64,000 nt of DNA from positions 304,759-368,758 of IMG/VR virus record IMGVR_UViG_3300025162_000016; one strand, given 5' to 3'. Both the position numbers and the translations under genes were made by a program. The stretch's first letter is position 1. The number at the start of each line of letters is the position of its first letter. Of this stretch, positions 8,371 to 48,246 are shown piece by piece. Origin of the DNA: a virus. The notes beneath the pieces are model-generated. The model did no database searches, was not told where the DNA came from, and saw nothing but the letters and a program-made list of their open reading frames with translations.

Positions 8371-8424
8371 CTTTGTTAAAACAATTCAAGCTGATTATCT
8401 TTCGGAAGTTAAATATTACCGTTG

Positions 8425-8452
8425 ACATTCATTAAAAATCCGGTATGATTAT
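8425..8452 (+). promoter_or_regulatory. Promoter
   Basis: TTGACA then 16 bp then TATGAT, with about a 20-nt leader before ATG 8474. Confidence 0.6.
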
Positions 8453-8473
8453 AGATAGTTCTAATAAAACAAT

Positions 8474-20526: not shown

Positions 20527-20605
20527 GACCGTATATAAATTGACGCCTCCACGGGGCTACGGTTGGGTAATGCTAAGATCAATTGAGGAGACATGGATGT
20601 CTTCA

Positions 20606-21646: not shown

Positions 21647-21658
21647 TTGTTATCATTT

Positions 21659-28305: not shown

Positions 28306-29152
28306 GGTGAAGTGCTGGAACAGACCAGTTACTATATCACCCAATGATCCAACCGCAAACTTTATAAACTGTTGTGTTGGGTGAAGTGCTGGAACAGACC
28401 AGTTACTATATCACCAATATTACTACGTCGTATTTATATATCGAATGATAATGTTGGTGAAGTGCTGGAACAGACCAGTTACTATATCACCCAAGTCTAT
28501 CCATGCAACCTAATACATATCGTTGTGAGGTGAAGTGCTGGAACAGACCAGTTACTATATCACCGGAGAGAGATAAACCTCTACATGGTATGGTTCGGCC
28601 AGTGTGGTGAAGTGCTGGAACAGACCAGTTACTATATCACCTTCCCATATTCTTCGGAGTTACTCGAATTATCCGAGGTGAAGTGCTGGAACAGACCAGT
28701 TACTATATCACCTGTATGTGGTAACTTTTGTTCCTATAGCATCAACAAGGTGAAGTGCTGGAACAGACCAGTTACTATATCACCGTCAACAGTTGACATA
28801 CCTTGAATTCCCGGCGCTGTTGGTGAAGTGCTGGAACAGACCAGTTACTATATCACCTAATGATCCAACCGCAAACTTTATAAACTGTTGTGTTGGGTGA
28901 AGTGCTGGAACAGACCAGTTACTATATCACCAATATTACTACGTCGTATTTATATATCGAATGATAATGTTGGTGAAGTGCTGGAACAGACCAGTTACTA
29001 TATCACCTAGCATACTGGTATGATAGGATCTAAGAAGTAATCTTGGTGAAGTGCTGGAACAGACCAGTTACTATATCACCGACCATCGAGGGGATAACCG
29101 ACACGATTGACCTTACGGCGAATTACTGGAACAGACCAGTCACTATATCGCC
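28306..29152 (+). CRISPR. CRISPR array 2
   Basis: Twelve repeats start at 28306, 28380, 28456, 28529, 28606, 28677, 28749, 28822, 28896, 28972, 29045 and 29117. Spacers are 35-41 nt. Spacers 1 and 2 (28342-28379, 28416-28455) recur as spacers 8 and 9 (28858-28895, 28932-28971). The last repeat is diverged but its ends changed together (GGCGA / TCGCC), so pairing is kept. Confidence 0.85.
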
Positions 29153-31603: not shown

Positions 31604-31638
31604 TTGACTTTCTATAAACTTCGTGGTAGTATTTGAAC
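31604..31638 (+). promoter_or_regulatory. Leaderless promoter
   Basis: TTGACT (31604-31609), 17 bp, TAGTAT (31627-31632), 6 bp to ATG 31639. Confidence 0.7.
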
Positions 31639-31788
31639 ATGACCGATCAAGAGATTAATATTACAATTGCGGAATTGATGGGAATTCCAATGGAAGGTTC
31701 GTGGTGTGAACATTGGGGTAAGATAGCTAGTTGCAGTGCAAAACAACAAGCTATCGCTTTTTTAAGAGTTAAGGGAATAAAGATTTGA
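31639..31788 (+). CDS. Hypothetical 49-residue protein
   Basis: MTDQEINITIAELMGIPMEG at the start, CEHWGKIASCSAKQQAIAFL, basic end. The stop TGA is inside the next TTGACT (31785-31790). Supported by its leaderless promoter. Confidence 0.55.
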   Translation: MTDQEINITIAELMGIPMEGSWCEHWGKIASCSAKQQAIAFLRVKGIKI

Positions 31789-31813
31789 CTTTCTATAAAA
31801 TTCGTGGTAGTAT
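31785..31813 (+). promoter_or_regulatory. Promoter
   Basis: TTGACT, 17 bp, TAGTAT; near copy of 31604-31632, with a 37-nt leader to ATG 31850. Confidence 0.65.
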
Positions 31814-31849: not shown

Positions 31850-32161
31850 ATGATTAAAGAACTAACAAAAGAACAGAGTGATAAGTTTGGTGAGTATGTC
31901 AAGGTATGGACCGAGAAGGGGTTGACCACCCAACGGCAAACAGAAAGCGATGCTAAGATTGATTTCTGGAATTTTCAAAAGCACATTCTCAAGAAAGAAA
32001 ATCCGGCACCAGTAATTATTTTAGATTCACCGCTAAAATGTTGGATGGCGGTAGTGATGTCGTCCGCCATGAAGAGTTTGCCGGCAGAAAAAATTCAGAA
32101 AAATGTGATGGATAAGATCACGCCTGTAGTGGGCAAACTCTCTGTAAAACATGAAAACTAA
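31850..32161 (+). CDS. Hypothetical protein
   Basis: 103 residues, helical and basic (MIKELTKEQSDKFGEYVKVW...). Resembles N-terminal leaders of phage proteins that precede DUF6745-like genes, but only loosely. Overlaps the next gene. Confidence 0.5.
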   Translation: MIKELTKEQSDKFGEYVKVWTEKGLTTQRQTESDAKIDFWNFQKHILKKENPAPVIILDSPLKCWMAVVMSSAMKSLPAEKIQKNVMDKITPVVGKLSVKHEN

Positions 32162-32364: not shown

Positions 32365-32616
32365 ATGAATAATAAATTAATTAATGATCAAATTTATTTA
32401 CAAGTTGAGGATCAAATTAGATCACAAGTGCTGTCACAAGTTGAGTTACAAGTTTGGTCACAAGTCTATTCACAAGTCTATTCACAAATTCGGTCACAAG
32501 TTAGTTCACAAGTCTGGTCACTAGTTAAGTCACAAGTTGAGTCACCGGTTTGGTCACAAGTTGAGTCACAAGTGCGTCAACACGTTAGAAATGAGCTAAG
32601 ATCAAATGAGCATTAA
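32365..32616 (+). CDS. SQV-array ORF 1
   Basis: 83 residues, MNNKLINDQIYLQVEDQI then S-Q-V-x repeats; ends RNELRSNEH. First ORF of the array. The 11 bases before its ATG match the usual end of a preceding unit (CTAGAATTAC), suggesting a lost neighbour. Confidence 0.7.
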   Translation: MNNKLINDQIYLQVEDQIRSQVLSQVELQVWSQVYSQVYSQIRSQVSSQVWSLVKSQVESPVWSQVESQVRQHVRNELRSNEH

Positions 32617-32809
32617 ATTAATTATGGATCAAGTTTGGTCGCAAGTTAGGCATCAAATCGAGTCACAAATTTGGGATCAAGTCTGGTCACAAGTTCAGTT
32701 ACAAGTCTATTCACAAGTCTATTTGCAAGTTGCGTTACAAGTTCTGAATAAAGTTAGGTCACAAGTTGCGGATCAATTGCGGTCACAATTAGAATCAAAT
32801 AAATTATAA
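32606..32809 (+). CDS. SQV-array ORF 2
   Basis: 67 residues, MSIKLIMDQVWSQ start; 11-nt overlap with ORF 1; ends QLESNKL. Confidence 0.65.
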   Translation: MSIKLIMDQVWSQVRHQIESQIWDQVWSQVQLQVYSQVYLQVALQVLNKVRSQVADQLRSQLESNKL

Positions 32810-32833
32810 AGTAATGCGAGGGACAACATAAAA

Positions 32834-32995
32834 ATGGATTTTCCGGATCAAGTAATATTACAAGAGATGGGTAAAATAATGGGACGAGTTGAGTCACAAA
32901 TTGCGTCACAAGTTAGGTCACAAGTTTCGTCACAAGTTGCGAACCAAATTCAGTCACAGATGATGTCACAAATTCGGAATCAAATAGATAAATAG
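32834..32995 (+). CDS. SQV-array ORF 3
   Basis: 53 residues with an unusual start MDFPDQVILQEMGKIMGRV, shared with the ORF at 43619. The 24 bp before both starts are also shared. Confidence 0.6.
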   Translation: MDFPDQVILQEMGKIMGRVESQIASQVRSQVSSQVANQIQSQMMSQIRNQIDK

Positions 32996-32997
32996 TG

Positions 32998-33216
32998 ATG
33001 TCTCAATTACAGTTACAAGTTCGGACTCAGGTAAGGCATCAACTTGAAAGGTTTCTAATGTATCCGATGGTGGTACAAACTGGAAGTTTAATATCTCAAG
33101 AAGTCAACAACCAAATAGAATCCCAAGTTGGGCGTAAAATATGGGAAACCGTGGAGTTGAACATAGCATATACAATGGAATTCCAAGTTAAAGAACAACT
33201 AGAATTACATGAATAA
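32998..33216 (+). CDS. SQV-array ORF 4 (diverged)
   Basis: 72 residues. Only the first part keeps the repeat; the middle (RFLMYPMVVQTGSLISQEVN) is non-repetitive. ELELHE-type end. Confidence 0.55.
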   Translation: MSQLQLQVRTQVRHQLERFLMYPMVVQTGSLISQEVNNQIESQVGRKIWETVELNIAYTMEFQVKEQLELHE

Positions 33217-33424
33217 TACATTAATTAATGATCAAGTCTGGTCACAAGTCTATTCACAAGTTTGGCAACAAGTTCGGAATCAAGTTAGTTCACAAGTCTA
33301 TTCACAAGTTGATTCACAAGTCTGTTCACAAGTTTGGGATCAAGCTGGGTCACAAGTGCGGTCACAAATTTGGGATCAAGTAGGGCAACAAATTAGAAAT
33401 GAGCTAAGATCAAATGAGTATTAA
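33209..33424 (+). CDS. SQV-array ORF 5
   Basis: 71 residues, MNNTLINDQVWSQ start, Tyr/Cys-containing variable positions; 8-nt overlap upstream. Confidence 0.65.
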   Translation: MNNTLINDQVWSQVYSQVWQQVRNQVSSQVYSQVDSQVCSQVWDQAGSQVRSQIWDQVGQQIRNELRSNEY

Positions 33425-33638
33425 ATTAATTAATGATCAAGTCACGTCACAAGTTCAGTCACAAATTTGGGATCGAGTTTGGGATCAAGTGATGTCCCAA
33501 GTTTCGTCACAAGTTAGCTCAGAAGTTTGGAAACAAGTCTGGTCACAAGTTGAGTCAGAAGTGGCAGAACAACTCTGGTCACAAGTCAAGGATCCAGTCT
33601 GGTCACAAGTTCGGTCACAACTAGAATTATATGAATAA
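33414..33638 (+). CDS. SQV-array ORF 6
   Basis: 74 residues, MSIKLINDQ start; ends RSQLELYE. Confidence 0.65.
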   Translation: MSIKLINDQVTSQVQSQIWDRVWDQVMSQVSSQVSSEVWKQVWSQVESEVAEQLWSQVKDPVWSQVRSQLELYE

Positions 33639-34227
33639 TAAATTAATTAATGATCAAATTTATTCACAAGTTTCGGTACAAGTTGAGGATCAAGTTTGGG
33701 CACAAGTGCTATCACCAGTTCAGTCACGAGTTTCGTCACAACTGATGTCACAAGTTGAGTCACAAGTTGTGGCACAAGTTTGGTATAAATTAATTAATGA
33801 TCAAATTTATTCACAAATTAGATCACAAGTCTATTCACAAGTTGAGTTACAAGTTGAGTTACAAGTGCGGTCACAAGTCTGGTCACAAGTTGATTCAGAA
33901 GTGCGGTCACAAGTTCGGGATCAAGTTAAGTTACAAGTTGCATCACAAGTTAGGTCACAAGTTGGGGATCAAGTTGGGGATCAAGTTGGGGATCAAGTGA
34001 TGTCCCAAGTTTCGTCACAAGTTAGCTCAGAAGTTTGGAAACAAGTCTGGTCACAAGTTGAGTCACAAGTCTGGTCACAAGTTCAATTAATTAATGATCA
34101 AATTTATTTACAAGTTGAGTCACAAGTCTGGTCACAAGTTAATTCACAAATTCGGTCACAAGTTAGTAATCAAGTTAGGTCACACGTTGCGGATCAATTG
34201 CGGTCACAACTAGAATTACATGAATAA
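33631..34227 (+). CDS. SQV-array ORF 7 (fusion of units)
   Basis: 198 residues, the longest. Internal LINDQIYSQ and LINDQIYLQ show that three units have fused in frame. Contains GDQV three times in a row. Confidence 0.7.
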   Translation: MNNKLINDQIYSQVSVQVEDQVWAQVLSPVQSRVSSQLMSQVESQVVAQVWYKLINDQIYSQIRSQVYSQVELQVELQVRSQVWSQVDSEVRSQVRDQVKLQVASQVRSQVGDQVGDQVGDQVMSQVSSQVSSEVWKQVWSQVESQVWSQVQLINDQIYLQVESQVWSQVNSQIRSQVSNQVRSHVADQLRSQLELHE

Positions 34228-34573
34228 TAAATTAATTAATGATCAAATTTATTTACAAGTTGAGGATCAAATTAGATCACAAGTGCTGTCACAAGTTGAG
34301 TCACAAGTCTGGTCACAAGTTCGGCAAGTTGAAGCACAAGTTCGGAAACAAGTTGAGTCACAAGTTTATTCACAAGTCTATTCACAAGTGCTGTCACAAG
34401 TTGAGTCACAAGCCAATTCACAAGTCTGGTCACAAGTTGATTCAGAAGTGCGGGCACAAGTTCGGGATCAAGTTAAGTTACAAGTTGCATCACAAGTTAG
34501 GTCACAAGTTGGGGATCAAGCTGGGGATCAAGTTAGGCAACAAATTATAAATGAACTAAGGTCGCATGAATAA
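34220..34573 (+). CDS. SQV-array ORF 8
   Basis: 117 residues; shares its first 20 codons with ORFs 1 and 9; ends INELRSHE. Confidence 0.65.
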   Translation: MNNKLINDQIYLQVEDQIRSQVLSQVESQVWSQVRQVEAQVRKQVESQVYSQVYSQVLSQVESQANSQVWSQVDSEVRAQVRDQVKLQVASQVRSQVGDQAGDQVRQQIINELRSHE

Positions 34574-34814
34574 TAAATTAATTAATGATCAAATTTATTT
34601 ACAAGTTGAGGATCAAATTAGATCACAAGTGCTGTCACGAGTTGAGAACCAAGTCTGGTCACAAGTTAAGGATCAAGTGGGGCAACAAGTCTGGTCACAA
34701 GTTCGGTTACAAGTTGCGTTACAAGTTAGGGATCAAGTTAGATCACAAGTCTATTCACAAATTCGGTCACAAGTTAGGTTACAAATTTTGTCACAAGTTC
34801 AATCACAATTATAA
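34566..34814 (+). CDS. SQV-array ORF 9
   Basis: 82 residues, last before the DUF6745-like gene; ends RLQILSQVQSQL without the usual ELHE. Confidence 0.65.
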   Translation: MNNKLINDQIYLQVEDQIRSQVLSRVENQVWSQVKDQVGQQVWSQVRLQVALQVRDQVRSQVYSQIRSQVRLQILSQVQSQL

Positions 34815-34819
34815 GTGTT

Positions 34820-34848
34820 GACTTTCTATAAATCCTCTGATAGTATTG
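34820..34848 (+). promoter_or_regulatory. Promoter and RBS for the DUF6745-like gene
   Basis: TTGACT then TAGTAT about 17 bp apart, then GGAGG 10 bp before ATG 34863. This is one of few clear Shine-Dalgarno sites in the region, and marks the gene as independently expressed. Confidence 0.65.
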
Positions 34849-34862
34849 GAGGAGTGGAATAA

Positions 34863-35867
34863 ATGAATGTTCAGGATCAAATACATAAAAATGTGTGGTG
34901 TCCGTACGCCGAGGTTTCGGAAAACGTGCCACTTATTATCACATATCATATCGCATTTATATGTGATCAAATAGATAATTCAGTAAGATTTCAAGTAGCT
35001 AACCCACTTGAACTACAAATAAATAATCAAATTAAAAAAGAAACAACAGAAAATATGAATGAAATAGCTAAAGAAATGAATACCGATACGAATGATAAAA
35101 TCCGGGATCAAATTGTAGCCAATATATTGTCTCAACTAAAATCAAAAGTGACGGATGATGAAACCGAAATCGGGAATCAAGTAAAACTCGAAGTGGCAGA
35201 AGAAATCAAATCACATATTATGGCTCAAATGACATCAGAAGACAACAAATTCGTATATCCCTACTTCGATTGCCAGTTCTGGGCATCTTGGTTCAGTTTC
35301 TATGAATTTATGAAGACTGAACTAGGTATTGAATTCCCGAATGAAAAGGAATATAATATCCTCAAAGATTGTCAGAAATATGGCATGGTATTTCCTTTGG
35401 ATGACCTTTGTGTCGTATGTCAGCCGCCGACAATTATTAAAAAGAATAATTCAGGGTTGCACTGTGAGAATGGTCCGGCACTCAGTTATAACGGAGACAA
35501 CGAGATATTTGCATTGAACGGGGTGGTAATGCCTAAAGAATATGTATTAACTCCTGCTAGAGATATTACCGCAGAGACGGTTATGAAGGAGACCAATGTA
35601 GAGATTCGCCGGGAATTACTTAGGAAGGTAGGTATTGAGCGGCTAATGAATGATTTGCCACATAAACTGTTGGAGACCCGTGGTAACTACGAATTGTATA
35701 GTATTGATCTAAGTAATGAAATTAAAGATGCACGTTATCTGAAAATGCAGAACCCATCCATCGGAGTTTTTCATTTGGAGGGACTAGCTCCTGGTATTAA
35801 TACAATTGAGGAAGCTCTTAAATGGAGGAATAATAATTTGTTTGTTGACGCCGAAATTCTAACGTAA
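34863..35867 (+). CDS. DUF6745-like protein embedded in SQV array
   Basis: 334 residues. The N-terminal 120 residues hold scattered degenerate Q-V/Q-I tetrads (IRDQIVANILSQL, GNQVKLEV). Then WASWFSFYEFMKTELGIEF, YGMVFPLDDLCVVCQPPT, LHCENGPALSYNGDNEIFAL.GVVMPKEYV, VEIRRELLRKVGIERLM follow the order of DUF6745 proteins. Those in other bacteria often carry D-Q-V-W/R repeats in front of the domain. Function unknown. It has its own promoter and RBS, unlike the flanking ORFs. Confidence 0.65.
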   Translation: MNVQDQIHKNVWCPYAEVSENVPLIITYHIAFICDQIDNSVRFQVANPLELQINNQIKKETTENMNEIAKEMNTDTNDKIRDQIVANILSQLKSKVTDDETEIGNQVKLEVAEEIKSHIMAQMTSEDNKFVYPYFDCQFWASWFSFYEFMKTELGIEFPNEKEYNILKDCQKYGMVFPLDDLCVVCQPPTIIKKNNSGLHCENGPALSYNGDNEIFALNGVVMPKEYVLTPARDITAETVMKETNVEIRRELLRKVGIERLMNDLPHKLLETRGNYELYSIDLSNEIKDARYLKMQNPSIGVFHLEGLAPGINTIEEALKWRNNNLFVDAEILT

Positions 35868-35885
35868 ACCTAATGTTAAAACCTA

Positions 35886-36092
35886 ATGTTAAAGCTAATG
35901 ACACAAGTTGAGTCACAAGTTAGCTCACAAGTTTGGGATCAAGTTATGGATCAAGTTCGGTCACAAGTCTGGTCACAAGTTGCGTCACAAGTCTATTCAC
36001 AAGTTTGGAAGCAAGTTATGGATCAAGTTCGGTCACAAGTTGAGATTCAAGTGGGGCAACACGTTATAAATGAACTGGGGTCGAATGTATAA
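35886..36092 (+). CDS. SQV-array ORF 10
   Basis: 68 residues (MLKLMTQVESQ start; ATG 35898 possible). First unit after the DUF6745-like gene; preceded by a short duplicated CCTAATGTTAAA. Confidence 0.6.
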   Translation: MLKLMTQVESQVSSQVWDQVMDQVRSQVWSQVASQVYSQVWKQVMDQVRSQVEIQVGQHVINELGSNV

Positions 36093-36321
36093 TAAATTAA
36101 TTGATGATCAAGTTCGGTCACAAGTTAGGGATCGAGTTTGGAAACAAGTTGAGTTACAAGTTTCAACTCAAGTGTCGTCACAAGTTAGTTCAGAAGTGAG
36201 GTCGCAAATTTGGGATCAAGTTTGGAAACAAGTCTATTCACAAGTTCAGTCACACGTCTGGGATCAAGTCGAAGCACAAGTTCGGAATCAACTTCGGTTA
36301 CAACTAGAATTACATGAATGA
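36085..36321 (+). CDS. SQV-array ORF 11
   Basis: 78 residues, MYNKLIDDQVRSQ start; ends RLQLELHE. Confidence 0.65.
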   Translation: MYNKLIDDQVRSQVRDRVWKQVELQVSTQVSSQVSSEVRSQIWDQVWKQVYSQVQSHVWDQVEAQVRNQLRLQLELHE

Positions 36322-36502
36322 TATAATTAGATATCAAATTAGGGATCGAGTTAGGTCACAAGTTGTGGATCAAGTCTGGTCACAAGTTTCGGCACAAGTT
36401 GATTCAGAAGTGAGGTCGCAAGTTTGGGATCAAGTGATGTTACAAGTTCAGTCACAAGTTGCGAACCAAATTCGGTCACAACTAGAATCACATGAACATT
36501 AA
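36314..36502 (+). CDS. SQV-array ORF 12
   Basis: 62 residues, MNDIIRYQIRDRVRSQ start; 8-nt overlap. Confidence 0.65.
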   Translation: MNDIIRYQIRDRVRSQVVDQVWSQVSAQVDSEVRSQVWDQVMLQVQSQVANQIRSQLESHEH

Positions 36503-36827
36503 TAAATTAATTAATGATCAAGTCTGTTTACAAGTTTGGGATCGAGTTAGGTCGCAAGTTTCGTCACAAGTTACGTTACAAGTCACGTCACAAGTTGAGG
36601 ATCAAGTGATGTCCCAAGTTCAGTCACAAGTTCAGTCACAAGTCTATTCACAAGTCACGTCACAAGTTCAGTCACAAGTTTGGGATCGAATTAGGTCACA
36701 AGTTCAGTCACGAGTTGCGTCACAAGTCTGGTCACAAGTTGAGTTACAAGTCACGTCACAAGTTGTGTTACAAGTTCGGAATCAAGTTAAATCACAAGTG
36801 CGGTCACAACTAGAATTACATGAATGA
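36492..36827 (+). CDS. SQV-array ORF 13
   Basis: 111 residues, MNINKLINDQ start, about 25 tetrads, many Thr (ACG) at the variable position. Confidence 0.65.
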   Translation: MNINKLINDQVCLQVWDRVRSQVSSQVTLQVTSQVEDQVMSQVQSQVQSQVYSQVTSQVQSQVWDRIRSQVQSRVASQVWSQVELQVTSQVVLQVRNQVKSQVRSQLELHE

Positions 36828-37101
36828 TATAATTAAATATCAAATTAGGGATCGAGTTAGGTCACAAGTTGCGGATCAAGTTCGTTCACAAGTCTGGTCA
36901 CAAGTTAGGTCACAAGTTCTGAATAAAGTTAGGTCACACGTTGCGGCACAAGTTGGGGTAAAAGTTGGGGTGAAAGTTGAGTCACAAATTAGGGATCAAG
37001 TTATGAATCAAGTTAGGTCACAAGTTAGTGATCAAGTTGCGACACAAGTGCGGACACAAGTGCAGAATCAAGTGCGGTCACAACTAGAATTACATGAATG
37101 A
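36820..37101 (+). CDS. SQV-array ORF 14
   Basis: 93 residues, MNDIIKYQI start; contains GVKVGVKV where the glutamine is replaced by lysine. Confidence 0.65.
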   Translation: MNDIIKYQIRDRVRSQVADQVRSQVWSQVRSQVLNKVRSHVAAQVGVKVGVKVESQIRDQVMNQVRSQVSDQVATQVRTQVQNQVRSQLELHE

Positions 37102-37387
37102 TATAATTAAAAACCAAATTCTTGATCAAGTTAGGTCACAAGTTGAGAACAAAGTCTGGTCACAAGTTAGGGATCAAGCTTGGGCACAAGTCACGTCACA
37201 AGTTAGGGATCAAGTCTGGTCACAAGTTGGGTCACAAGTTGGGGCACAAGTTCGGTCACAAGTTCGGGTACAAGTAGCTGAACAAGTTGGGTCACAAGTT
37301 GGGTCACAAGTTGGGGCACAAGTTCGGTCACAAGTTCGGGTACAAGTAGCTGAACAAGTTGGGTCACAACTAGAATTACATGAATGA
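37094..37387 (+). CDS. SQV-array ORF 15
   Basis: 97 residues with a near-perfect internal tandem duplication of five tetrads (GSQVGAQVRSQVRVQVAEQV), showing ongoing unit amplification. Confidence 0.7.
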   Translation: MNDIIKNQILDQVRSQVENKVWSQVRDQAWAQVTSQVRDQVWSQVGSQVGAQVRSQVRVQVAEQVGSQVGSQVGAQVRSQVRVQVAEQVGSQLELHE

Positions 37388-37709
37388 TATAATTAAATAT
37401 CAAATTTTTGATCGAGTTAGGTTACAAGTGCAGGATCAAGTTTGGTCACAAGTTGACGTTCAAATTTGGGATCAAATCTGGTTACAGGTAATGTCACAAG
37501 TGTTGTTACAAGTTGAGTTACAAGTTCGGAATCAAGTAATTAATCAAGTTCAGTTACAAGTGATGACTCCATTGATAAAACGAATGGATGAACATGTGGA
37601 TGATCAAGTTTGGACCCACGTTTGGAATCAAATTGGGTTACAAGTGGCACAGCAAATTCAATCCCAAGTCAGAAATCAAGTTAGGTCACAACTCGAATCA
37701 CATGAATAA
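37380..37709 (+). CDS. SQV-array ORF 16
   Basis: 109 residues; includes the non-repeat block MTPLIKRMDEHVDDQ, which recurs in ORF 43 (44134). Confidence 0.65.
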   Translation: MNDIIKYQIFDRVRLQVQDQVWSQVDVQIWDQIWLQVMSQVLLQVELQVRNQVINQVQLQVMTPLIKRMDEHVDDQVWTHVWNQIGLQVAQQIQSQVRNQVRSQLESHE

Positions 37710-37944
37710 TCTAATTAGATACCAAATTAGATCACAAGTTGATTCACAAGTGCGGTCACAAGTTATAACACTCTGGTCCCAAGTTACGTCACAAGTGCGG
37801 CCACAAGTCTGTTCACAAGTTTTGGATCAAGTTGCGTCACAAGTTCGGTCACAAGTGTGGTCACAAGTTAGTGATCAAGTTGCGACACAAGTTGGGGCAC
37901 AAGTTCGGAATCAAGTAATGTTACAACTCGAATCACATGAATAA
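37702..37944 (+). CDS. SQV-array ORF 17
   Basis: 80 residues from ATG 37702 (MNNLIRYQIRSQ); in-frame upstream extension belongs to another frame of ORF 16. Confidence 0.65.
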   Translation: MNNLIRYQIRSQVDSQVRSQVITLWSQVTSQVRPQVCSQVLDQVASQVRSQVWSQVSDQVATQVGAQVRNQVMLQLESHE

Positions 37945-38182
37945 TCTACTTAAAAACCAAATTTGGGATCAAGTTGAGGCACAAGTTGAGTTGCAAGTGG
38001 GATATCAAATTTGGGATCAAGTTAGGTCACGAGTTGAGTCACTAATGATGTTACAAGTTCGGAAACAAGTTGAGTCACAAGTTTATTCACAAATTCGGTC
38101 ACAAGTTAGGGATCAAGTGGGGCAACAAGTTCAGTCACAAGTCTGGTCACAAGTTATGTCACAACTAGAATCACATGAATGA
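37937..38182 (+). CDS. SQV-array ORF 18
   Basis: 81 residues, MNNLLKNQIWDQVEAQ start shared with ORFs 20-22. Confidence 0.65.
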   Translation: MNNLLKNQIWDQVEAQVELQVGYQIWDQVRSRVESLMMLQVRKQVESQVYSQIRSQVRDQVGQQVQSQVWSQVMSQLESHE

Positions 38183-38468
38183 TATAATAAGGAATAAAAT
38201 TGGGAAACAAGTTCTGGTACAAGTGATGTCCCAAGTTGATGAACAAGTTAGTTCACAAGTTAGGGATCAAGTCTGGTCACAAGTTAAGTCACAAGTCTAT
38301 TCACAAGTCTATTCACAAGTTGAGGATCAAGTTAGTTCACAAGTCTATTTGCAAGTTGAGTTACAAGTCTATTCACAAGTCACGTCACAAGTTAGGTCAC
38401 AAGTTATGTCACAAGTCTGTTCACAAGTTAGGGATAAAGTAATGTTACAACTCGAATCACATGAATAA
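38175..38468 (+). CDS. SQV-array ORF 19
   Basis: 97 residues, MNDIIRNKIGKQV start; Tyr-rich variable positions. Confidence 0.65.
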   Translation: MNDIIRNKIGKQVLVQVMSQVDEQVSSQVRDQVWSQVKSQVYSQVYSQVEDQVSSQVYLQVELQVYSQVTSQVRSQVMSQVCSQVRDKVMLQLESHE

Positions 38469-38658
38469 TCTACTTAAAAACCAAATTTGGGATCAAGTTG
38501 AGGCACAAGTTTGGAATCGAGTTAGGTCACAAGTTCGGAATAAAGTTAAGTTACAAGTTGCATCACAAGTCTGGTCACAAGTTCGGAATCAAGTAATGTT
38601 ACAAGTCTGGGATCAAGTGCGGTCACACGTTTCGTCACAACTCGAATCACATGAATAA
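38461..38658 (+). CDS. SQV-array ORF 20
   Basis: 65 residues, MNNLLKNQIWDQ start; ends SSQLESHE. Confidence 0.65.
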   Translation: MNNLLKNQIWDQVEAQVWNRVRSQVRNKVKLQVASQVWSQVRNQVMLQVWDQVRSHVSSQLESHE

Positions 38659-38860
38659 TCTACTTAAAAACCAAATTTGGGATCAAGTATGGTCGCAAGT
38701 CACGTCACAAGTTCTGTTACCTGTGATGTCCCAAGTTGATGAACAGGTTGGGGTTCAAATCTGGTCACAAGCTAAGTCACAAGTTGAGTCGGAAGTGGCA
38801 GAACAAGTCTGGTCACAAGTTCGGAATCAAGTAATGTTACAACTCGAATCACATGAATAA
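38651..38860 (+). CDS. SQV-array ORF 21
   Basis: 69 residues, MNNLLKNQIWDQ start; VESEVAEQVW segment shared with ORFs 6, 23 and 28. Confidence 0.65.
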   Translation: MNNLLKNQIWDQVWSQVTSQVLLPVMSQVDEQVGVQIWSQAKSQVESEVAEQVWSQVRNQVMLQLESHE

Positions 38861-39074
38861 TCTACTTAAAAACCAAATTTGGGATCAAGTTGAGGCACAA
38901 GTTGAGTTGCAAGTGGGGGATCAAATTTGGGATCGAGTTAGGTCACGAGTTGAGTCACTAATGATGTTACAAATTTGGGATCGAGTTAGGTCACGAGTTG
39001 AGAACCAAGTCTGGTCGCAAGTTAAGGATCAAGTGGGGCAACAAGTTATAAATGAACTAAGGTCGCATGAATAA
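38853..39074 (+). CDS. SQV-array ORF 22
   Basis: 73 residues; RVRSRVE occurs twice, a local duplication. Confidence 0.65.
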   Translation: MNNLLKNQIWDQVEAQVELQVGDQIWDRVRSRVESLMMLQIWDRVRSRVENQVWSQVKDQVGQQVINELRSHE

Positions 39075-39327
39075 TAAATTAATTAATGATCAAGTTTGGA
39101 ATCAAGTTAGGCAACAAGTCTATTCACAAGTTGAGTTACAAGTTGAGTTACAAGTGCGGTCACAAGTTGGGCAACAAGTTAGGGATCAAGTCTTGATACA
39201 AATCCGGTTACAAATTTGGTCACAGATTCAGTTACAAGTTCGGTCACAAGTCGAGTCAGAAGTAGCAAAACAAGTGTGGTCACAAATTAGAAATCACGTT
39301 ATGTCACAATTAGAATCACATGAATGA
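39067..39327 (+). CDS. SQV-array ORF 23
   Basis: 86 residues, MNNKLINDQVWNQVRQQV start shared with ORF 33. Confidence 0.65.
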   Translation: MNNKLINDQVWNQVRQQVYSQVELQVELQVRSQVGQQVRDQVLIQIRLQIWSQIQLQVRSQVESEVAKQVWSQIRNHVMSQLESHE

Positions 39328-39613
39328 TATAATAACGAATAAAATCGGGAAACAAGTTCAGTCACAAGTTTGGCAACAAGTTGAGTACCCAATGTTGAAA
39401 CACCTCGTATCACAAGTTACGTCAAGAGGTCGGGATAAAGTTAGGCAACAAGTTAGTAATCAAGTCTGGTCACAAATTAAGTCACAGGTCAATTCACAAG
39501 TTCAGTCACGAGTTGCGTCACAAGTCTGGTCACAAGTCCGGTTACAAGTTTCGTCACAAGTCTGGTTACAAATTTGGCAACAAGTTATAAATGAACTAAT
39601 ATCGCATGAATAA
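39320..39613 (+). CDS. SQV-array ORF 24
   Basis: 97 residues, MNDIITNKIGKQV start; insertion YPMLKHLVSQVTSRGRDKV also found in ORFs 30, 37 and 45. Confidence 0.65.
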   Translation: MNDIITNKIGKQVQSQVWQQVEYPMLKHLVSQVTSRGRDKVRQQVSNQVWSQIKSQVNSQVQSRVASQVWSQVRLQVSSQVWLQIWQQVINELISHE

Positions 39614-39695
39614 TATAATAACGAATAAAATCGGGAAACAAGTTCAGTCACAAGTTAGTTCACAAGTCTGGTCACAACTAGAATTACATGAATAA
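39606..39695 (+). CDS. SQV-array ORF 25 (short)
   Basis: 29 residues, MNNIITNKIGKQVQSQV then end SQLELHE; a collapsed copy of the ORF 24 type with only four tetrads. Confidence 0.5.
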   Translation: MNNIITNKIGKQVQSQVSSQVWSQLELHE

Positions 39696-39894
39696 TCAAA
39701 TTAAAGATCAAATTTGGGGTCGAGTTTTGTCACAAGTTTCAGCACAACTTCACCTAATTGATGCTCAAGTCTGGTCACAAGTTAGGTCACAAGTTGAGAA
39801 CCAAGTCTGGTCACAAGTTTCGTCACAAGTTATGTTAAAAGTTGAGTCACAAGTTGAGTCACAAGTTATAAATGAACTGGGGTCGCATGAATAA
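39688..39894 (+). CDS. SQV-array ORF 26
   Basis: 68 residues, MNNQIKDQIWGRV start; ends INELGSHE. Confidence 0.65.
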   Translation: MNNQIKDQIWGRVLSQVSAQLHLIDAQVWSQVRSQVENQVWSQVSSQVMLKVESQVESQVINELGSHE

Positions 39895-40417
39895 TAAATT
39901 AATTAATGATCAAGTCTGGTCACAAGACTATTCACACATCTATTCACAAGTTCCGTTACGAGTTTGGGTTCAAGTCTGGTCACAAGTCCGGGATCAAGTT
40001 CGGAAACAAGTCTGGCAAGTTGAGGATCAAGTTACGTCACAAGTTTCGTCACAAGTTTGGGATCGAGTCTGGTCACAAGTTCAGTCACAAGCCAATTCAC
40101 AAGTTGAGGCTCAAGTTCGTTCACAAGTCTGGTCACAAGTTATGTCACAAGTTACGTCACAAGTTGATGAACAAGTCTGGTCACAAGTTCGGGATCAAGT
40201 GATGTTACAAGTTCAGTCACGAGTTGCGTCACAAATCTGGTCACAAGTCTGGTCACCAGTCGGGGCACAAGTTTCGTCACAAGTTAGCTCACAAGTTAGC
40301 TCACAAGTTTGGCAACAAGTTGAACAAGTTAGCTCACAAGTTCCGTCACAAATTAGGTCGCACGTTGAGTTACAAGTTAGGAACCGAGTTATAAATGAAC
40401 TAAGATCGCATGAATAA
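39887..40417 (+). CDS. SQV-array ORF 27
   Basis: 176 residues, about 42 tetrads, second longest; starts at ATG 39887 (MNNKLINDQVWSQ). Two places break the period (WQVEDQV, EQVSSQV) by losing codons in multiples of three. Confidence 0.65.
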   Translation: MNNKLINDQVWSQDYSHIYSQVPLRVWVQVWSQVRDQVRKQVWQVEDQVTSQVSSQVWDRVWSQVQSQANSQVEAQVRSQVWSQVMSQVTSQVDEQVWSQVRDQVMLQVQSRVASQIWSQVWSPVGAQVSSQVSSQVSSQVWQQVEQVSSQVPSQIRSHVELQVRNRVINELRSHE

Positions 40418-40754
40418 TAAATTAATTAATGAACAAGTCTGGTCACAAACTTGGGATCAAGTTGCGGCACAAGTTGTGGATCAAGTTAACTCACAAGTTA
40501 TGTTAAAAGTTGAGTCGGAAGTGGCAGAACAAGTCTGGTCACAAGTTCGGAATCAAATTATGTCACAAGTCTATTCACAAGTTGCGTTACAAGTGCAGGA
40601 TCAAGTTAGTTCACAAGTTAGGAATCAAGTTTGGGATCGAGTAATGTTACAAGTTCGGAATAAAGTTAAGTCACAAGTTCAGTCGCAAGTTTGGGATCGA
40701 GTAATGTTACAAGTTGCGTCACAAGTTATAAATGAACTGGGATCGAATGTATAA
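40410..40754 (+). CDS. SQV-array ORF 28
   Basis: 114 residues; block VWDRVMLQVRNKVKSQV partly duplicated at its end. Confidence 0.65.
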   Translation: MNNKLINEQVWSQTWDQVAAQVVDQVNSQVMLKVESEVAEQVWSQVRNQIMSQVYSQVALQVQDQVSSQVRNQVWDRVMLQVRNKVKSQVQSQVWDRVMLQVASQVINELGSNV

Positions 40755-40950
40755 TAAATTAATTAATGATCAAGTCTGGTTACAAGTTTGGGATCGAGTT
40801 AGGTCGCAAGTTAGTTCACAAATTTGGGATCGAGTCTGGTCACAAGTTAAGTCACAAGTTGCGGCACAAGTTGATTCACAAGTGCGGTCACAAGTAAATA
40901 GTCAAGTTATAGCACAAATTAGAAATAAGCTAAGATCAAATGAGTATTAA
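40747..40950 (+). CDS. SQV-array ORF 29
   Basis: 67 residues, MYNKLINDQVWLQ start at ATG 40747. Confidence 0.65.
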   Translation: MYNKLINDQVWLQVWDRVRSQVSSQIWDRVWSQVKSQVAAQVDSQVRSQVNSQVIAQIRNKLRSNEY

Positions 40951-41152
40951 ATTAATTGATGATCAAGTCTGGTCACAAGTTCAACCAGAAATTTGGGATC
41001 GAGTTAAATCGCCAATGGTGAAACATCTAGTATCACAAGTCACATTACAAGTCACGTTACAAGTTGAGTCACAAGTTATGTCACAAGTTTGGCAACAAAT
41101 TTGGCAACAAGTTTCGTCACAAGTTCGGTCACAACTAGAATCACATGAATAA
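40940..41152 (+). CDS. SQV-array ORF 30
   Basis: 70 residues, MSIKLIDDQ start; insertion SPMVKHLVSQV. Confidence 0.65.
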   Translation: MSIKLIDDQVWSQVQPEIWDRVKSPMVKHLVSQVTLQVTLQVESQVMSQVWQQIWQQVSSQVRSQLESHE

Positions 41153-41306
41153 TACATTAATTAATGATCAAGTTTGGCAACAAGTTAGCTCACAAGTTTG
41201 GCAACAAGTTGAACAAGTTAGCTCACAAGTTGCGTCACAGGTTTCGTCACAAGTCAAGGATCCAGTCTGGTCACAAGTTCGGTCACAACTAGAATTATAT
41301 GAATAA
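41145..41306 (+). CDS. SQV-array ORF 31
   Basis: 53 residues, MNNTLINDQVWQQV start; shares WQQVEQVSSQV with ORF 27 and KDPVWSQVRSQLELYE with ORF 6, so it looks like a recombinant of the two. Confidence 0.6.
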   Translation: MNNTLINDQVWQQVSSQVWQQVEQVSSQVASQVSSQVKDPVWSQVRSQLELYE

Positions 41307-41511
41307 TAAATTAATTAATGATCACTTTTGGGATCAAGTCTGGTCACAGGTGATATCACAAGCTTCGTTACAAATTGAGTTACAAGTTAGCTCACAAGTT
41401 ATATCACAAGTCGGGTCACAAGTTCGGTCACAAGTTTGGAAGCAAGTTCAGTCACAAGTTAGTAATCAAGTTAGGCAACAAATTATAAATGAACTGGGGT
41501 CGAATGTATAA
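41299..41511 (+). CDS. SQV-array ORF 32
   Basis: 70 residues, MNNKLINDHFWDQ start; ends INELGSNV. Confidence 0.65.
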   Translation: MNNKLINDHFWDQVWSQVISQASLQIELQVSSQVISQVGSQVRSQVWKQVQSQVSNQVRQQIINELGSNV

Positions 41512-41716
41512 TAAATTAATTAATGATCAAGTTTGGAATCAAGTTAGGCAACAAGTCTATTCACAAGTTGATTCACAAGTTGCGGCACAAATAAATAATC
41601 AGATTAAGTCACAAGTTCAGAATCAAGTTGCGTCACAAGTTTGGAAGCAAGTTCAGTCACAAGTTAGTAATCAAGTTATAGCACAAATTAGAAATGAACT
41701 GGGGTCGAATGTATAA
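41504..41716 (+). CDS. SQV-array ORF 33
   Basis: 70 residues from ATG 41504 (MYNKLINDQVWNQ). Confidence 0.65.
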   Translation: MYNKLINDQVWNQVRQQVYSQVDSQVAAQINNQIKSQVQNQVASQVWKQVQSQVSNQVIAQIRNELGSNV

Positions 41717-41981
41717 TAAATTAATTAATGATCAAGTCTATTCACAAGTGCTGTCACAAGTTTGGGAGCAAGTTGCGTCACAAATAAATAATCAGATTAA
41801 GTCACAAGTTCAGAATCAAGTGATAGCACAAGTCACGTCACAAGTTTGGGATCAAGTTTCAAATCAAGTTTTGGAACGAATTATATCTCAAGTTTCGGAA
41901 CAAGTTTCGGAACAAGTTGAGTTATACGTTTTGGATCAAGTTAGAGCACATGTAGTGAGTAAACTTTGGGTAAGTAAATAA
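41709..41981 (+). CDS. SQV-array ORF 34
   Basis: 90 residues, MYNKLINDQVYSQ; the end (ELYVLDQVRAHVVSKLWVSK) departs from the repeat. A 28-bp gap follows, one of few in the array. Confidence 0.6.
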   Translation: MYNKLINDQVYSQVLSQVWEQVASQINNQIKSQVQNQVIAQVTSQVWDQVSNQVLERIISQVSEQVSEQVELYVLDQVRAHVVSKLWVSK

Positions 41982-42009
41982 TCAAATATATAATAACTTG
42001 TTACGAATT

Positions 42010-42219
42010 ATGAAGGAGAAAATGATATATCAAGTGTCGAGGGACGTGCAGAATCAAGTGCGGGATAAGGTTTGGAATCAAGTTGAGTTACACGTTTTGG
42101 ATCAAATTTCGTCACAAGTCAATTCACAAGTCAATTCACAAGTCTGGTCACAAGTCTGGTCACAAGTCTGGTCACAAGTGGGGGATCAAGTTCGGTCACA
42201 ATTAGAATCACATGAATAA
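42010..42219 (+). CDS. SQV-array ORF 35
   Basis: 69 residues from ATG 42010 (MKEKMIYQVSRDV...), preceded by AAGGAG-like bases within its start; WSQV four times in a row with identical DNA. Confidence 0.6.
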   Translation: MKEKMIYQVSRDVQNQVRDKVWNQVELHVLDQISSQVNSQVNSQVWSQVWSQVWSQVGDQVRSQLESHE

Positions 42220-42460
42220 TAAATTAGTTAATGATAAAATCTGGTCACAAATTTGGGATCGAATTAGGTCACAAGTTCAGTCACGAGTTAGCTCACAAGT
42301 TAGCTCACAAGTTTGGCAACAAGTTATGAATCGAGTTACGTCACAAGTTAATGATCAAGTCTATTCACAAGTTATGTCACAAATTTGGGATCGAGTCACG
42401 TCACAAGTTGAGGATCAAGTTGCGGCACAAGTTCGGTCACAACTAGAATTACATGAATAA
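42212..42460 (+). CDS. SQV-array ORF 36
   Basis: 82 residues, MNNKLVNDKIWSQ start. Confidence 0.65.
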   Translation: MNNKLVNDKIWSQIWDRIRSQVQSRVSSQVSSQVWQQVMNRVTSQVNDQVYSQVMSQIWDRVTSQVEDQVAAQVRSQLELHE

Positions 42461-42836
42461 TAATAAATTAGTTAATGATCAAGTCTATTCACAAGTTATG
42501 TCACAAGTTGAGTCACAAGTTTCAACTCAAGTGTCGTCACAAGTTGAGTTGGAAGTTGTGTTACAAGTTGCGGTACGAGTTAGTTCACAAGTTAGGAATC
42601 AAGTTTGGGATCGAGTTAGTTCACAAGTTAGGAATCAAGTTTTGGATCGAGTTAGGTCACAAGTTGATTACCCAATGATGAAACACCTCCTATCACAAGT
42701 TACGTCACAAGTTAGGTCACAAGTTAGGTCACAAGTCTATTCACAAGTCCGGTCACAAGTTAGCTCGGAAGTTTGGAAACAAGTTTCGTCACAAATAGCA
42801 GAACAAGTGCGGTCACAATTAGAATTACATGAATGA
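42453..42836 (+). CDS. SQV-array ORF 37
   Basis: 127 residues, MNNNKLVNDQVYSQ start; insertion YPMMKHLLSQV near the centre. Confidence 0.65.
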   Translation: MNNNKLVNDQVYSQVMSQVESQVSTQVSSQVELEVVLQVAVRVSSQVRNQVWDRVSSQVRNQVLDRVRSQVDYPMMKHLLSQVTSQVRSQVRSQVYSQVRSQVSSEVWKQVSSQIAEQVRSQLELHE

Positions 42837-43071
42837 TATAACTAACTATCAAATTTGGGTTCAAGTTAAGTCACAAGTCTGGTCACAAGTTAAGTCACAA
42901 GTTGAGGATCAAGCTTGGGCACAAGTCACGTCACAAGTAGCAGAACAAGTTTGGGATCAAGTCTGGTCACAAGTTCGGAATCAAATCACGTTACAAGTCA
43001 ATTCACAAGTAGCAGAACAAGTAGCAGAACAAGTGCGGTCACAAATATCTTCCAATGGACAATTTATATAA
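42829..43071 (+). CDS. SQV-array ORF 38
   Basis: 80 residues, MNDITNYQIWVQV; a different end, RSQISSNGQFI, shared with ORF 39. Confidence 0.65.
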   Translation: MNDITNYQIWVQVKSQVWSQVKSQVEDQAWAQVTSQVAEQVWDQVWSQVRNQITLQVNSQVAEQVAEQVRSQISSNGQFI

Positions 43072-43282
43072 TCAAGTTCAGTCACAAGTTGCATCCCACG
43101 TTGATTCCCAAGTCTGGTCACAAGTTTCAACTCAAGTCTCGTCACAAGTTGAATTAGAAGTGAGGTCGCAAGTCTATTCACAAATTGAGGATCAAGTTCG
43201 TTCACAAGTCAATTCACAAGTTGCGTCACAAGTAGCAGAACAAGTGCGGTCACAAATATCTTCCAATGGACAATTTATATAA
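43055..43282 (+). CDS. SQV-array ORF 39
   Basis: 75 residues, MDNLYNQVQSQV; overlaps ORF 38 by 17 nt. Confidence 0.65.
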   Translation: MDNLYNQVQSQVASHVDSQVWSQVSTQVSSQVELEVRSQVYSQIEDQVRSQVNSQVASQVAEQVRSQISSNGQFI

Positions 43283-43577
43283 TCAAATTATTGATCAAGT
43301 TGAGTTACACGTTTTGGATCAAGTTTCGTCACAAGTCTGGTCACAAGTCTGGTCACAAGTCTGGTCACAAGTTGATTCAGAAGTGCGGTCACAAGTTCTG
43401 AATAAAGTTAGGTCACAAGTTTCGTCACAAGTTTGGGATCAAGTTTGGTCACAAGTTAGGGATCAAGTGATGTTACAAGTTTCGTCACAAGTTTGGGATC
43501 AAGTGATGTTACAAGTTGCGTTACAAGTTCTGAATAAAGTTAGGTCACAAGTTGCGGATCAATTGCGGCACAATTAG
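43266..43577 (+). CDS. SQV-array ORF 40
   Basis: 103 residues, MDNLYNQIIDQVELHV; ends ADQLRHN after an apparent deletion relative to RSQLESNKL of ORF 2. Confidence 0.65.
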   Translation: MDNLYNQIIDQVELHVLDQVSSQVWSQVWSQVWSQVDSEVRSQVLNKVRSQVSSQVWDQVWSQVRDQVMLQVSSQVWDQVMLQVALQVLNKVRSQVADQLRHN

Positions 43578-43618
43578 AATCAAATAAATTATAAAGTAAT
43601 GCGAGGGACAACATAAAA

Positions 43619-43819
43619 ATGGATTTTCCGGATCAAGTAATATTACAAGAGATGGGTAAAATAATGGGACGAGTTAGGTCACAAGTTGCGGATCAAGTTC
43701 GGTCACAAGTGAGGACACAAGTTTGGGATCAAGTTTGGAATCGACTTATTAAAGCTGGTGGATCACAAGTTAAATCAGAAATTGAGTCACAAATATCTTC
43801 CAATGAACAATTTATATAA
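43619..43819 (+). CDS. SQV-array ORF 41
   Basis: 66 residues, MDFPDQVILQEMGKIMGRV start as in ORF 3; contains LIKAGGSQV. Confidence 0.6.
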   Translation: MDFPDQVILQEMGKIMGRVRSQVADQVRSQVRTQVWDQVWNRLIKAGGSQVKSEIESQISSNEQFI

Positions 43820-44141
43820 ACAAGTTCAGTCACAAGTAGCAGAACAAGTGCGGTCACAAGTTGATTCACAAGTTGCGACACAAGTTCGAATTCAAATCAA
43901 TTCACAAGTTACGTCACAAGTCTATTCACAAGTTGCGGATCAAGTTTCGGAACAAGTCTGGTCACAAGTCTGGTCACAAGTTTCGCCACAAGTCCATTCA
44001 CAAGTATGGTCACAAGTTCGGTTACAAGTTGCGTTACAAGTTTGGGATCAAGTTAGATCACACGTTGCGGCACAAGTCTATTCACAAGTGCTGTCACAAA
44101 TTAGAGATCAAGTTATAAATAAGCTAAGATCACATGAATAA
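43803..44141 (+). CDS. SQV-array ORF 42
   Basis: 112 residues from ATG 43803 (MNNLYKQVQSQ). Confidence 0.65.
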   Translation: MNNLYKQVQSQVAEQVRSQVDSQVATQVRIQINSQVTSQVYSQVADQVSEQVWSQVWSQVSPQVHSQVWSQVRLQVALQVWDQVRSHVAAQVYSQVLSQIRDQVINKLRSHE

Positions 44142-44328
44142 TACATTAATTAATTATCAAACCTATTCACAAGTTTGGGATCGAGTGAGGGGACACGTTG
44201 CGGATCAAATAATGTTACAAGTGATGACTCCATTGATAAAACGAATGGATGAACAAGTTGCGTCACAAGTTTCGTCACAAATTTCGTCACAAGTCACGTC
44301 ACAAAATGAATTTGGGTCGCATGAATAA
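44134..44328 (+). CDS. SQV-array ORF 43
   Basis: 64 residues, MNNTLINYQTYSQ; carries the MTPLIKRMDEQV block. Confidence 0.6.
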   Translation: MNNTLINYQTYSQVWDRVRGHVADQIMLQVMTPLIKRMDEQVASQVSSQISSQVTSQNEFGSHE

Positions 44329-44581
44329 TAGATTAATTAAAGACCAAATCGAGTCACAAATCTATTCACAAGTCACGTCACAAGTTAGGGATCAAGTCTG
44401 GTCACAAGTCACGTCACAAGTAGCAGAACAAGTGAGGTCACAAGTCTGTTCACAAGTTCGAATTCAAGTTAGGTCACAAGTTGCGTTACAAGTTGAGTTA
44501 CAAGTTCGGTTACAAGTAAATGAGCAGATTCGGAATCAAGTTGCGGCACAAGTTATAAATGAACTGGGGTCGAATGTATAA
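44321..44581 (+). CDS. SQV-array ORF 44
   Basis: 86 residues from ATG 44321 (MNNRLIKDQIESQ). Confidence 0.65.
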   Translation: MNNRLIKDQIESQIYSQVTSQVRDQVWSQVTSQVAEQVRSQVCSQVRIQVRSQVALQVELQVRLQVNEQIRNQVAAQVINELGSNV

Positions 44582-44798
44582 TAAATTAATTAAAGACCAA
44601 ATCGAGTCACAAGTTTGGCGACAAGTTGAAGCACAAATCGAGTCACAGGTGGTATACCCAATGTTCGGACACCTCGTATCACAAATTGCGTCACAAGTTT
44701 CATCTCAAGTTATGTCACGAGTTGAGCCACAAGTTAGGACACAAGTGAATGAGCATGTTGCGGATCAATTGCGGTCACAATTAGAATTACATGAATAA
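44574..44798 (+). CDS. SQV-array ORF 45
   Basis: 74 residues from ATG 44574 (MYNKLIKDQIESQ); insertion YPMFGHLVSQIA. Confidence 0.65.
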   Translation: MYNKLIKDQIESQVWRQVEAQIESQVVYPMFGHLVSQIASQVSSQVMSRVEPQVRTQVNEHVADQLRSQLELHE

Positions 44799-44979
44799 TA
44801 AATTAGTTAATGATCAAGTCTATTCACAAGTTTCGACTCAAGTTTCGGAACAAGTCTGGTCACACGTTGTGTCACAAGTTTCGTCACAAGTTGATGATCA
44901 AGTTTGGGATCAAGTTAGATCACACGTTGCGGCACAAGTTAGTTCACAAGTTCGGTCACAACTAGAATTACATGAATAA
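44791..44979 (+). CDS. SQV-array ORF 46
   Basis: 62 residues, MNNKLVNDQVYSQ; ends RSQLELHE. Confidence 0.65.
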   Translation: MNNKLVNDQVYSQVSTQVSEQVWSHVVSQVSSQVDDQVWDQVRSHVAAQVSSQVRSQLELHE

Positions 44980-45196
44980 TAATCGAATTATTGATCAAGT
45001 TTCGACTCAAGTTTGGTCACAAGTTTGGGATCAAGTTGAGTCACAAGTTAGCTCACAAGTCTGGTCACAAGTTCGGTTACAAGTTGCGTTACAAGTTAGG
45101 AATCAAGTTTGGTCACAAGTTGCGGCACAAGTTAAGGAAAATGTTGAATCACAAATTAGAAGCCACCTCGCCCGCTCTATTTTGTTTGTTGACTAG
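44972..45196 (+). CDS. SQV-array ORF 47 (last)
   Basis: 74 residues, MNNNRIIDQVSTQ; the end (KENVESQIRSHLARSILFVD) leaves the repeat, marking the right edge of the array. Confidence 0.65.
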   Translation: MNNNRIIDQVSTQVWSQVWDQVESQVSSQVWSQVRLQVALQVRNQVWSQVAAQVKENVESQIRSHLARSILFVD

Positions 45197-48096: not shown

Positions 48097-48246
48097 ATGA
48101 AAACACCTATATATACAAAAATTGCACAGCGAAACTGGATGGAAAAGCGAAAGAAAGCGGGATATTGCTGGGCTACTTTCTTTACCACCAAGGAGAACGT
48201 AGCTAAATTAAAGGAGTTCTACGCTGAACTCAAAAAGTCCAAATGA
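48097..48246 (+). CDS. Small TnpB-associated protein
   Basis: 49 residues, MKTPIYTKIAQRNWMEKRKK..., homologous to the 18015-17836 protein. Its TGA overlaps the ATG of the following tnpB (ATGA), so the two are translationally coupled. Likely part of the insertion element. Confidence 0.6.
   Translation: MKTPIYTKIAQRNWMEKRKKAGYCWATFFTTKENVAKLKEFYAELKKSK

Follow-up and report, generated by a model that had tools for sequence, protein, structure and literature searches.

How does a phage come to carry dozens of short, tightly packed open reading frames (ORFs) built from a single four-residue repeat? The question is raised by a 64,000-nucleotide stretch of viral DNA, referred to here as the window, that spans bases 304759-368758 of the 368,758-base virus record IMGVR_UViG_3300025162_000016. 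At positions 32365-45196 of the window lie 47 plus-strand ORFs, 29-198 residues in length, that consist of (S/D/L/N...)-Q-V-x tetrads and are called QV ORFs below. Judged by its UvsX, T4-type DNA polymerase, portal, PhoH and ribonucleotide reductase genes, the source virus is a T4-like giant phage. The answer that we favor, with a probability of about 0.62, is that the array is what the repeat tract of a DUF6745 protein module becomes when it is exploded into separate, trans-acting pieces.

A fused relative of the array

In bacteria and many phages, tetrads of this type form an insert between an N-terminal domain (N-domain; ..LTxEQ..W..GLSTEPAD..AY..AGL..P..SP) and the DUF6745 domain (PF20530), and genes with this insert were found in Pseudomonadota, Nitrospirota, Planctomycetota, Actinomycetota and others. 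Nearly every DUF6745 gene is neighbored by a gene for a small protein with an E-[ST]-G-H-x-H motif, the partner, which in locus L161 is apparently fused to DUF6745 (a weak hidden Markov model (HMM) match, E = 0.0009). The related phage contig L319 encodes a single 568-residue chain composed of the N-domain, 66 SQVx units and DUF6745, and its units are written TCA-CAA-GTT-nnn, the same DNA consensus as in the window. A separate N-domain ORF in the window is 50% identical to the L319 N-terminus over 90 residues (E=9e-25), and the DUF6745 ORF of the window is 55% identical to L319 over 335 residues; here the two domains lie on separate ORFs and not on one chain as in the relatives. The DUF6745 ORF is the sole PF20530 copy in the genome and begins with a degenerate QI/QV remnant of 4 units; none of the QV ORFs tested matched PF20530. 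Because the fused L319 homologue shares the N-domain, the C-domain and the codon consensus, the window array is, on sequence grounds, the exploded form of one N-domain-tract-DUF6745 gene.

The QV locus extends beyond 32365-45196, with the N-domain ORF before the array, the DUF6745 ORF inside it, and a lone QV ORF with the partner downstream. Its features are as follows, where E-values from local HMMs were computed within the fetched sequence set:

31604-31632, plus strand: promoter-like element copy 1, TTGACTTTCTATAAA-N8-TAGTAT
31785-31813, plus strand: promoter-like element copy 2, 5' of the N-domain ORF
31850-32161, plus strand: N-domain of the DUF6745 protein, here a 103-residue ORF of its own (local N-domain HMM E=2.6e-12)
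32365-34814, plus strand: QV array block 1, 9 coupled ORFs (starts at 32365, 32606, 32834, 32998, 33209, 33414, 33631, 34220 and 34566)
34818-34846, plus strand: promoter-like element copy 3, 5' of the DUF6745 ORF
34863-35867, plus strand: C-domain DUF6745 (PF20530) ORF, 334 residues (PF20530 50.5 bits, cut-off 27)
35886-45196, plus strand: QV array block 2, 38 coupled SQVx-repeat ORFs
52419-52640, plus strand: lone QV-repeat ORF outside the array, 73 residues
52965-53300, plus strand: partner, small all-beta protein with E-S-T-G-H-x-H ... Q-E-H motifs (local HMM E=4e-12)

The promoter-like element is 29 bp long and resembles a sigma-70 promoter in which the spacing is 17 bp and a TG precedes the -10 box. 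Exactly three copies are present in the 368,758-base genome, all at the QV locus, and two of the three directly precede the N-domain and C-domain ORFs.

Tract and separate ORFs across DUF6745 loci

Is the window an isolated case? All of the arrays, that of the window included, come from metagenome contigs, and most neighboring loci were covered with a few kb of flank. Within this material, separate QV ORFs are present in about 20 other phage records. Among 61 DUF6745 loci (a few records counted twice), 38 carry an in-gene tract (28 of these as complete ORFs), and none of the 38 has a separate QV ORF in the covered flank. Conversely, of 14 distinct records, the window included, in which DUF6745 occurs with separate QV ORFs, none has a tract of at least 5 units. 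The remaining DUF6745 loci display neither state in the covered stretch or carry another tetrad chemistry. PF20530 was detected in 8 of 17 further QV-ORF records as compared to 0 of 25 control viral records. In a tree of the C-domain, the records with separate ORFs (trans) do not form one clade, and the starred branches force at least four changes of state; the window falls within a starred group of four trans rows that is nested among rows with an in-gene tract (cis). When the window DUF6745 was used as the query against viral contigs no match was obtained, and the relative L319 was reached through L143.

Separate QV arrays are thus a recurring kind, so far undescribed; the window array is by far the largest seen and stands alone in that its N- and C-domains are separated as well. 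The original prediction had known of no other genome with an amplified array of this kind, and such uniqueness does not survive the about 20 other records. It had also described D/S-Q-V-x repeats as a leader in front of DUF6745; the link to DUF6745 stands, but the repeat is not a free leader, since it sits between the N-domain and DUF6745. Nor has the leader alone been amplified: the window also carries the N-domain, the C-domain and the partner, and L319 provides the fused form.

The tract also appears outside this family. By eye, QV tetrads were recognized in an unrelated protein family (L135:1188-2378 and L190:3300-4184) whose members share the C-terminus ATSYW...HWF.DFL.LG...FGKKGxYLGEY, and in L135 the tract follows an apparent macro domain; its occurrence in this unrelated architecture implies a portable module. 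Other tetrad chemistries (SSLx, DQLx and TNLx) occupy the same slot in DUF6745 proteins, with x still drawn from W, R, E and G. In another phage, L033, a QV ORF is flanked by apparent MoxR-like ATPase and VWA-type genes (5829-6938 and 7503-8687, identified by eye).

Structure of the array

The DNA unit of the window array is (TCA/GAT/TTA/AAT...)-CAA-GT(T/C/G)-NNN. Over 680 units, TCA occupies position 1 in 325, CAA encodes Q in 670 (98.5%) and GTT encodes V in 376, while x is R in 126, W in 123, E in 80 and S in 66, followed by others. The tract is therefore a period-4 polar-Q-V-x peptide with variable x, and its strict four-residue period rules out pentapeptide repeat proteins, which follow a five-residue A(D/N)LXX pattern. 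The pattern CAAGT...CAAGT...CAAGT has 306 matches on a single strand of the 368,758-base genome, and the listed positions are all inside the array.

All but one of the 47 ORFs come from an ATG-start listing; the other (32995-33216, with its ATG at 32998) has a lower repeat content. At 40 of the 45 adjacent ATG-ORF pairs the stop of one ORF overlaps the start of the next, by 8 bp in 33 cases (ATGAATAA type), by 11 in 4 and by 17 in 3. This listing and these overlaps bear out the count, common orientation, lengths and position of the QV ORFs given in the original prediction. The start and stop caps differ by junction type (MNNKLIND.../...ELHE, MNDIIKYQ, MNNLLKNQ, and MDNLYNQ/...NGQFI), and they cluster locally, as tandem duplication predicts.

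Selection on the repeat ORFs

Are the QV ORFs selected as proteins? In 642 DNA-located units, no in-frame stop is found at x, as compared to 54.8 expected from position-specific base frequencies, an estimate that treats bases as independent; the absence of stops rules out chance ORFs. Ten other arrays have 0 or 1 in-frame stop at x. In general, the first two bases of the x codon (x1 and x2) vary more than the third base of V, a four-fold synonymous position, and in most arrays the difference is several fold. Diversity at x1 exceeds neighboring synonymous diversity in 11 of 11 arrays, and values for x1 and x2 versus the V third base are 0.47 and 0.61 versus 0.00 in L155, 0.68 and 0.56 versus 0.09 in L160, and 0.74 and 0.68 versus 0.51 in the window. 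Statistically, the tetrad scaffold is under purifying selection, with x either free or driven to vary. The open frames, together with array changes that keep frame, indicate that QV peptides are selected as proteins.

A different explanation is that repeat expansion is simply tolerated: slippage and unequal recombination would have produced harmless by-product ORFs, with stops purged only because of operon polarity or toxic fragments. The phage is generally repeat-rich, with 90-bp repeat proteins and 36-bp repeats, unit order and number vary even between close relatives, and many DUF6745 genes lack a tract, all of which would be expected for such a by-product. Tolerated expansion would nevertheless leave the pairing of QV ORFs with insert-free DUF6745 as a coincidence, and it sits poorly with the recurrence of these ORFs across the phage records and the repeated changes of state on the tree. 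Moreover, the excess diversity at x1 and the return of the tetrad pattern with other residues at the same place both argue against it, and we consider this explanation unlikely, if still deserving of weight.

Could the 12-bp units instead act as DNA, as a protein-binding decoy, a recombination substrate or a packaging or segregation site, with the ORFs incidental? The array is long and regular, and its unit DNA is strongly homogeneous, as the near-invariant CAA codon illustrates. Between lineages, however, the same peptide is written with differing codons (CAA or CAG for Q; GTT, GTC, GTG or GTA for V; TCA, TCT or AGC for S), such that the DNA changes synonymously while the peptide is held constant. 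The lack of in-frame stops, the retention of start and stop caps in every natural variant, and the presence of arrays on both strands in L113 and L160 are likewise difficult to reconcile with a role of the array as DNA, which is disfavored on these grounds and appears improbable. Of the products that the original prediction had entertained, the DNA-level array thus gives way to a family of short repeat proteins, for which both stops and frameshifts are excluded. Frequent frameshifts and no purifying signal had been named there as findings that would speak against its proposal, and the opposite was observed.

Turnover of the arrays

Natural variants of one locus reveal how the arrays change. 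Among L155 and L236-L240, the DUF6745 gene is identical (0 differences in 858 bp) and 7,000 bp of flank differ at 0 or 1 position. The arrays nevertheless differ. The downstream arrays measure 344, 490, 344, 344 and 234 bp, and upstream, ORFs of 89 and 61 residues are present or absent. In L240, a frame-keeping deletion merged two ORFs (54 + 58 residues) into one of 75, and L237 carries a new 33-residue ORF; all of these variants retain frames and start and stop caps. A second pair, L314 and L315, has 99% identical DUF6745 with 2 versus 6 QV ORFs, and unit order and number are not conserved even among close relatives. ORFs of the window that lie as far as 10.8 kb apart have identical blocks of up to 107 bp in common, and repeated 24-mers account for 57% of the array as compared to 32% when units are shuffled. 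With regard to a diversity-generating retroelement (reverse transcriptase plus template repeat), the changes observed are block gains and losses and not point hypermutation. In these related phages, blocks are added to the arrays, lost from them and recombined at a faster pace than mutations arise in the flanking DNA, with frames kept, which agrees with the active remodeling that had been anticipated from the window alone.

The junctions between ORFs bear on a further alternative, that of one giant protein made by programmed frameshifting. Each of the 40 overlaps in the window is 2 mod 3 in length, which means that the frame steps +1 at each overlapping junction and that frameshifting there would fuse the ORFs. 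On the other hand, the overlaps in L155 and L160 are 4 bp long and move the frame by the other step, and every ORF starts with an ATG of its own and bears conserved caps at both termini, leaving the giant protein with very little to recommend it.

Exchange of blocks among ORFs, and the changes between cis and trans on the tree, would also fit a sequence pool for rebuilding the fused gene, akin to silent-cassette antigen switching. Such an archive needs a fused tract and separate ORFs together, a combination that no locus has, and the ORFs possess their own starts and stops; we therefore hold this version to be equally improbable. Finally, although short-read assembly of repeats is error-prone and the record is a metagenome contig, an assembly artefact is hardly credible given 47 intact, capped and consistently overlapping ORFs, the identity of L155 and L236 over 4,854 bp, and new unit orders (the 33-residue ORF in L237) that collapse could not yield.

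A model for the exploded tract

The exploded-tract reading can be stated as follows. In the relatives, a single polypeptide comprises the N-domain, a polar-polar-aliphatic-x tetrad tract and DUF6745, encoded beside the all-beta partner, and in the window this chain is split into the N-domain ORF, the 47 short QV ORFs and the DUF6745 ORF. Translation of the QV ORFs probably proceeds by termination-reinitiation, with promoters that also serve the N- and C-domain ORFs. Strong selection, as gauged statistically, keeps the QV ORFs open while x is free or driven to vary. Blocks are gained, lost and recombined in frame, as the variants in related phages show, and block sharing is seen in the window. 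The QV peptides would then work together with DUF6745 and the partner, probably doing in trans what the tract does in cis. The tract itself is most likely an extended, exchangeable interaction surface on which x (W, R, E, G, Y, S...) sets what is bound.

Which points weigh against this reading? The first sample of loci was fetched by the QV pattern and had short flanks. Because of this selection, exclusivity was examined again in loci for which DUF6745 had been the sole search criterion, which gave trans states in L236-L242 and L314-L317, cis states in L319 and L322, neither in L318, and both in none. The tree leaves the ancestral state, fused or split, unsettled. The partner is single-copy in the genome and in the window lies 17 kb from DUF6745. 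Further, DUF6745 occurs without any tract in Actinomycetes and in the Microcystis phage Ma-LMM01. For the Actinomycetes, in a sample made up of the 30 best matches from 395 genomes (48 with the family) and not chosen for repeats, the partner is adjacent in 30/30 and tetrads are present in 0/30. These tract-free genes suggest that the module core is DUF6745 plus the partner and that the repeat tract is optional. Fold searches with DUF6745 and the partner returned no solved relative, and AlphaFold2 models of the fused protein have confident N- and C-domains with a tract that is helical only at a predicted local distance difference test (pLDDT) score of 45-50; structure thus yielded no function, and the interaction surface is an inference. 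The partner model is all beta, with a mean pLDDT of 88.

Annotation offers few further clues. The partner has no Pfam family, and Pfam, NCBIfam, PADLOC and PHROGs yielded no function for the module. PADLOC defence-system models had no match to the partner or DUF6745 and only weak repeat-driven matches to the tract; weak Pfam, PADLOC and PDB matches of the tract (YpjP, REase_II, eL29 and others) were discounted as repeat-driven. The literature searched nowhere mentions DUF6745 or the repeat strings, and neither gp174 nor gp175 is named in the transcriptome paper on Ma-LMM01 (PMC5780444). In some Actinomycetes (L307, L308 and L313), genes of the STM4013, STM4014 and STM4015 families lie near DUF6745, a possible functional context.

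We tentatively hypothesize that the tetrads constitute a combinatorial recognition code, with a constant polar-polar-aliphatic scaffold on which each unit presents a single side chain, drawn from a small set of chemically contrasting residues (W, R, E, G and a few others), such that a recombining operon of dozens of peptides would change the specificity of a DUF6745/partner effector. This hypothesis is speculative, and if it were true, the locus would be a fast-evolving protein library in a virus. The module provides a testable system, with a two-gene core and an optional tract carried inside a protein or as a swarm of peptides. It also documents, in a natural series of a rare kind, how a protein breaks up into a gene family, and lets one ask directly what dozens of variable short peptides are good for in a phage. 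The novelty lies in the absence of a described counterpart and not in a proven new mechanism; to a reader who regards DUF6745 as a known system, the arrays would be a variant of that system.

Other features of the window

An Rfam scan of 16000-54000 gave no match in the array, its sole match being a phage-encoded transfer-messenger RNA gene at 20136-20529 (RF00023, 93.8 bits) that ARAGORN did not call. Near-perfect 36-bp repeats, GGTGAAGTGCTGGAACAGACCAGTTACTATATCACC, form two arrays that resemble clustered regularly interspaced short palindromic repeats (CRISPR), at 26815-27301 and 28306-29080 (7 and 11 copies, 71-86 bp spacing), and the repeat is dispersed as single copies at 5137, 10012, 25696 and 45782. 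Three genes at 18519-19664, 24108-25283 and 48243-49493 encode TnpB/Cas12f-like RNA-guided nucleases, identified by TnpB family models (two) and a Cas12f1-like TNB domain (the third); one lies directly 5' of the CRISPR-like repeats. Two large proteins (21647-23941 and 49771-51870) contain 90-bp (30-residue) tandem repeats, and a papain-family protease gene (57639-59357) is split by an intein that carries an HNH-like segment. A run of 29 G at 16295-16323 is unusual for an AT-rich phage.

Comparison with known systems

What does the locus most resemble? The fused DUF6745 proteins of L319 and of bacterial loci have the same N-domain, DUF6745, QV tetrad position and small partner gene as the window. 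They differ in that the tract lies within one chain, whereas the window has 47 separate ORFs with the N- and C-domains split off. The arrays of L054, L086, L113, L137, L152, L155, L160 and L315 are likewise made of short coupled QV ORFs with homogenized caps, and most of them have DUF6745 and the partner nearby or elsewhere in the record. Those arrays differ from the window in size (1-14 ORFs seen as compared to 47), in having the N-domain and DUF6745 in one chain, and in their caps and codons. The cultured, T4-like phage Ma-LMM01 has DUF6745 and the partner as adjacent genes (gp174/gp175) and, unlike the window, has no repeat tract in the DUF6745 gene or elsewhere in its genome.

TALE, PPR and PUF proteins are built of modular repeats, each of which varies at one residue or pair of residues on a fixed scaffold. 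A fixed scaffold with a variable position is common to these proteins and the QV repeats, and the likeness is one of analogy only: their repeats span about 34-36 residues as compared to 4 in QV.

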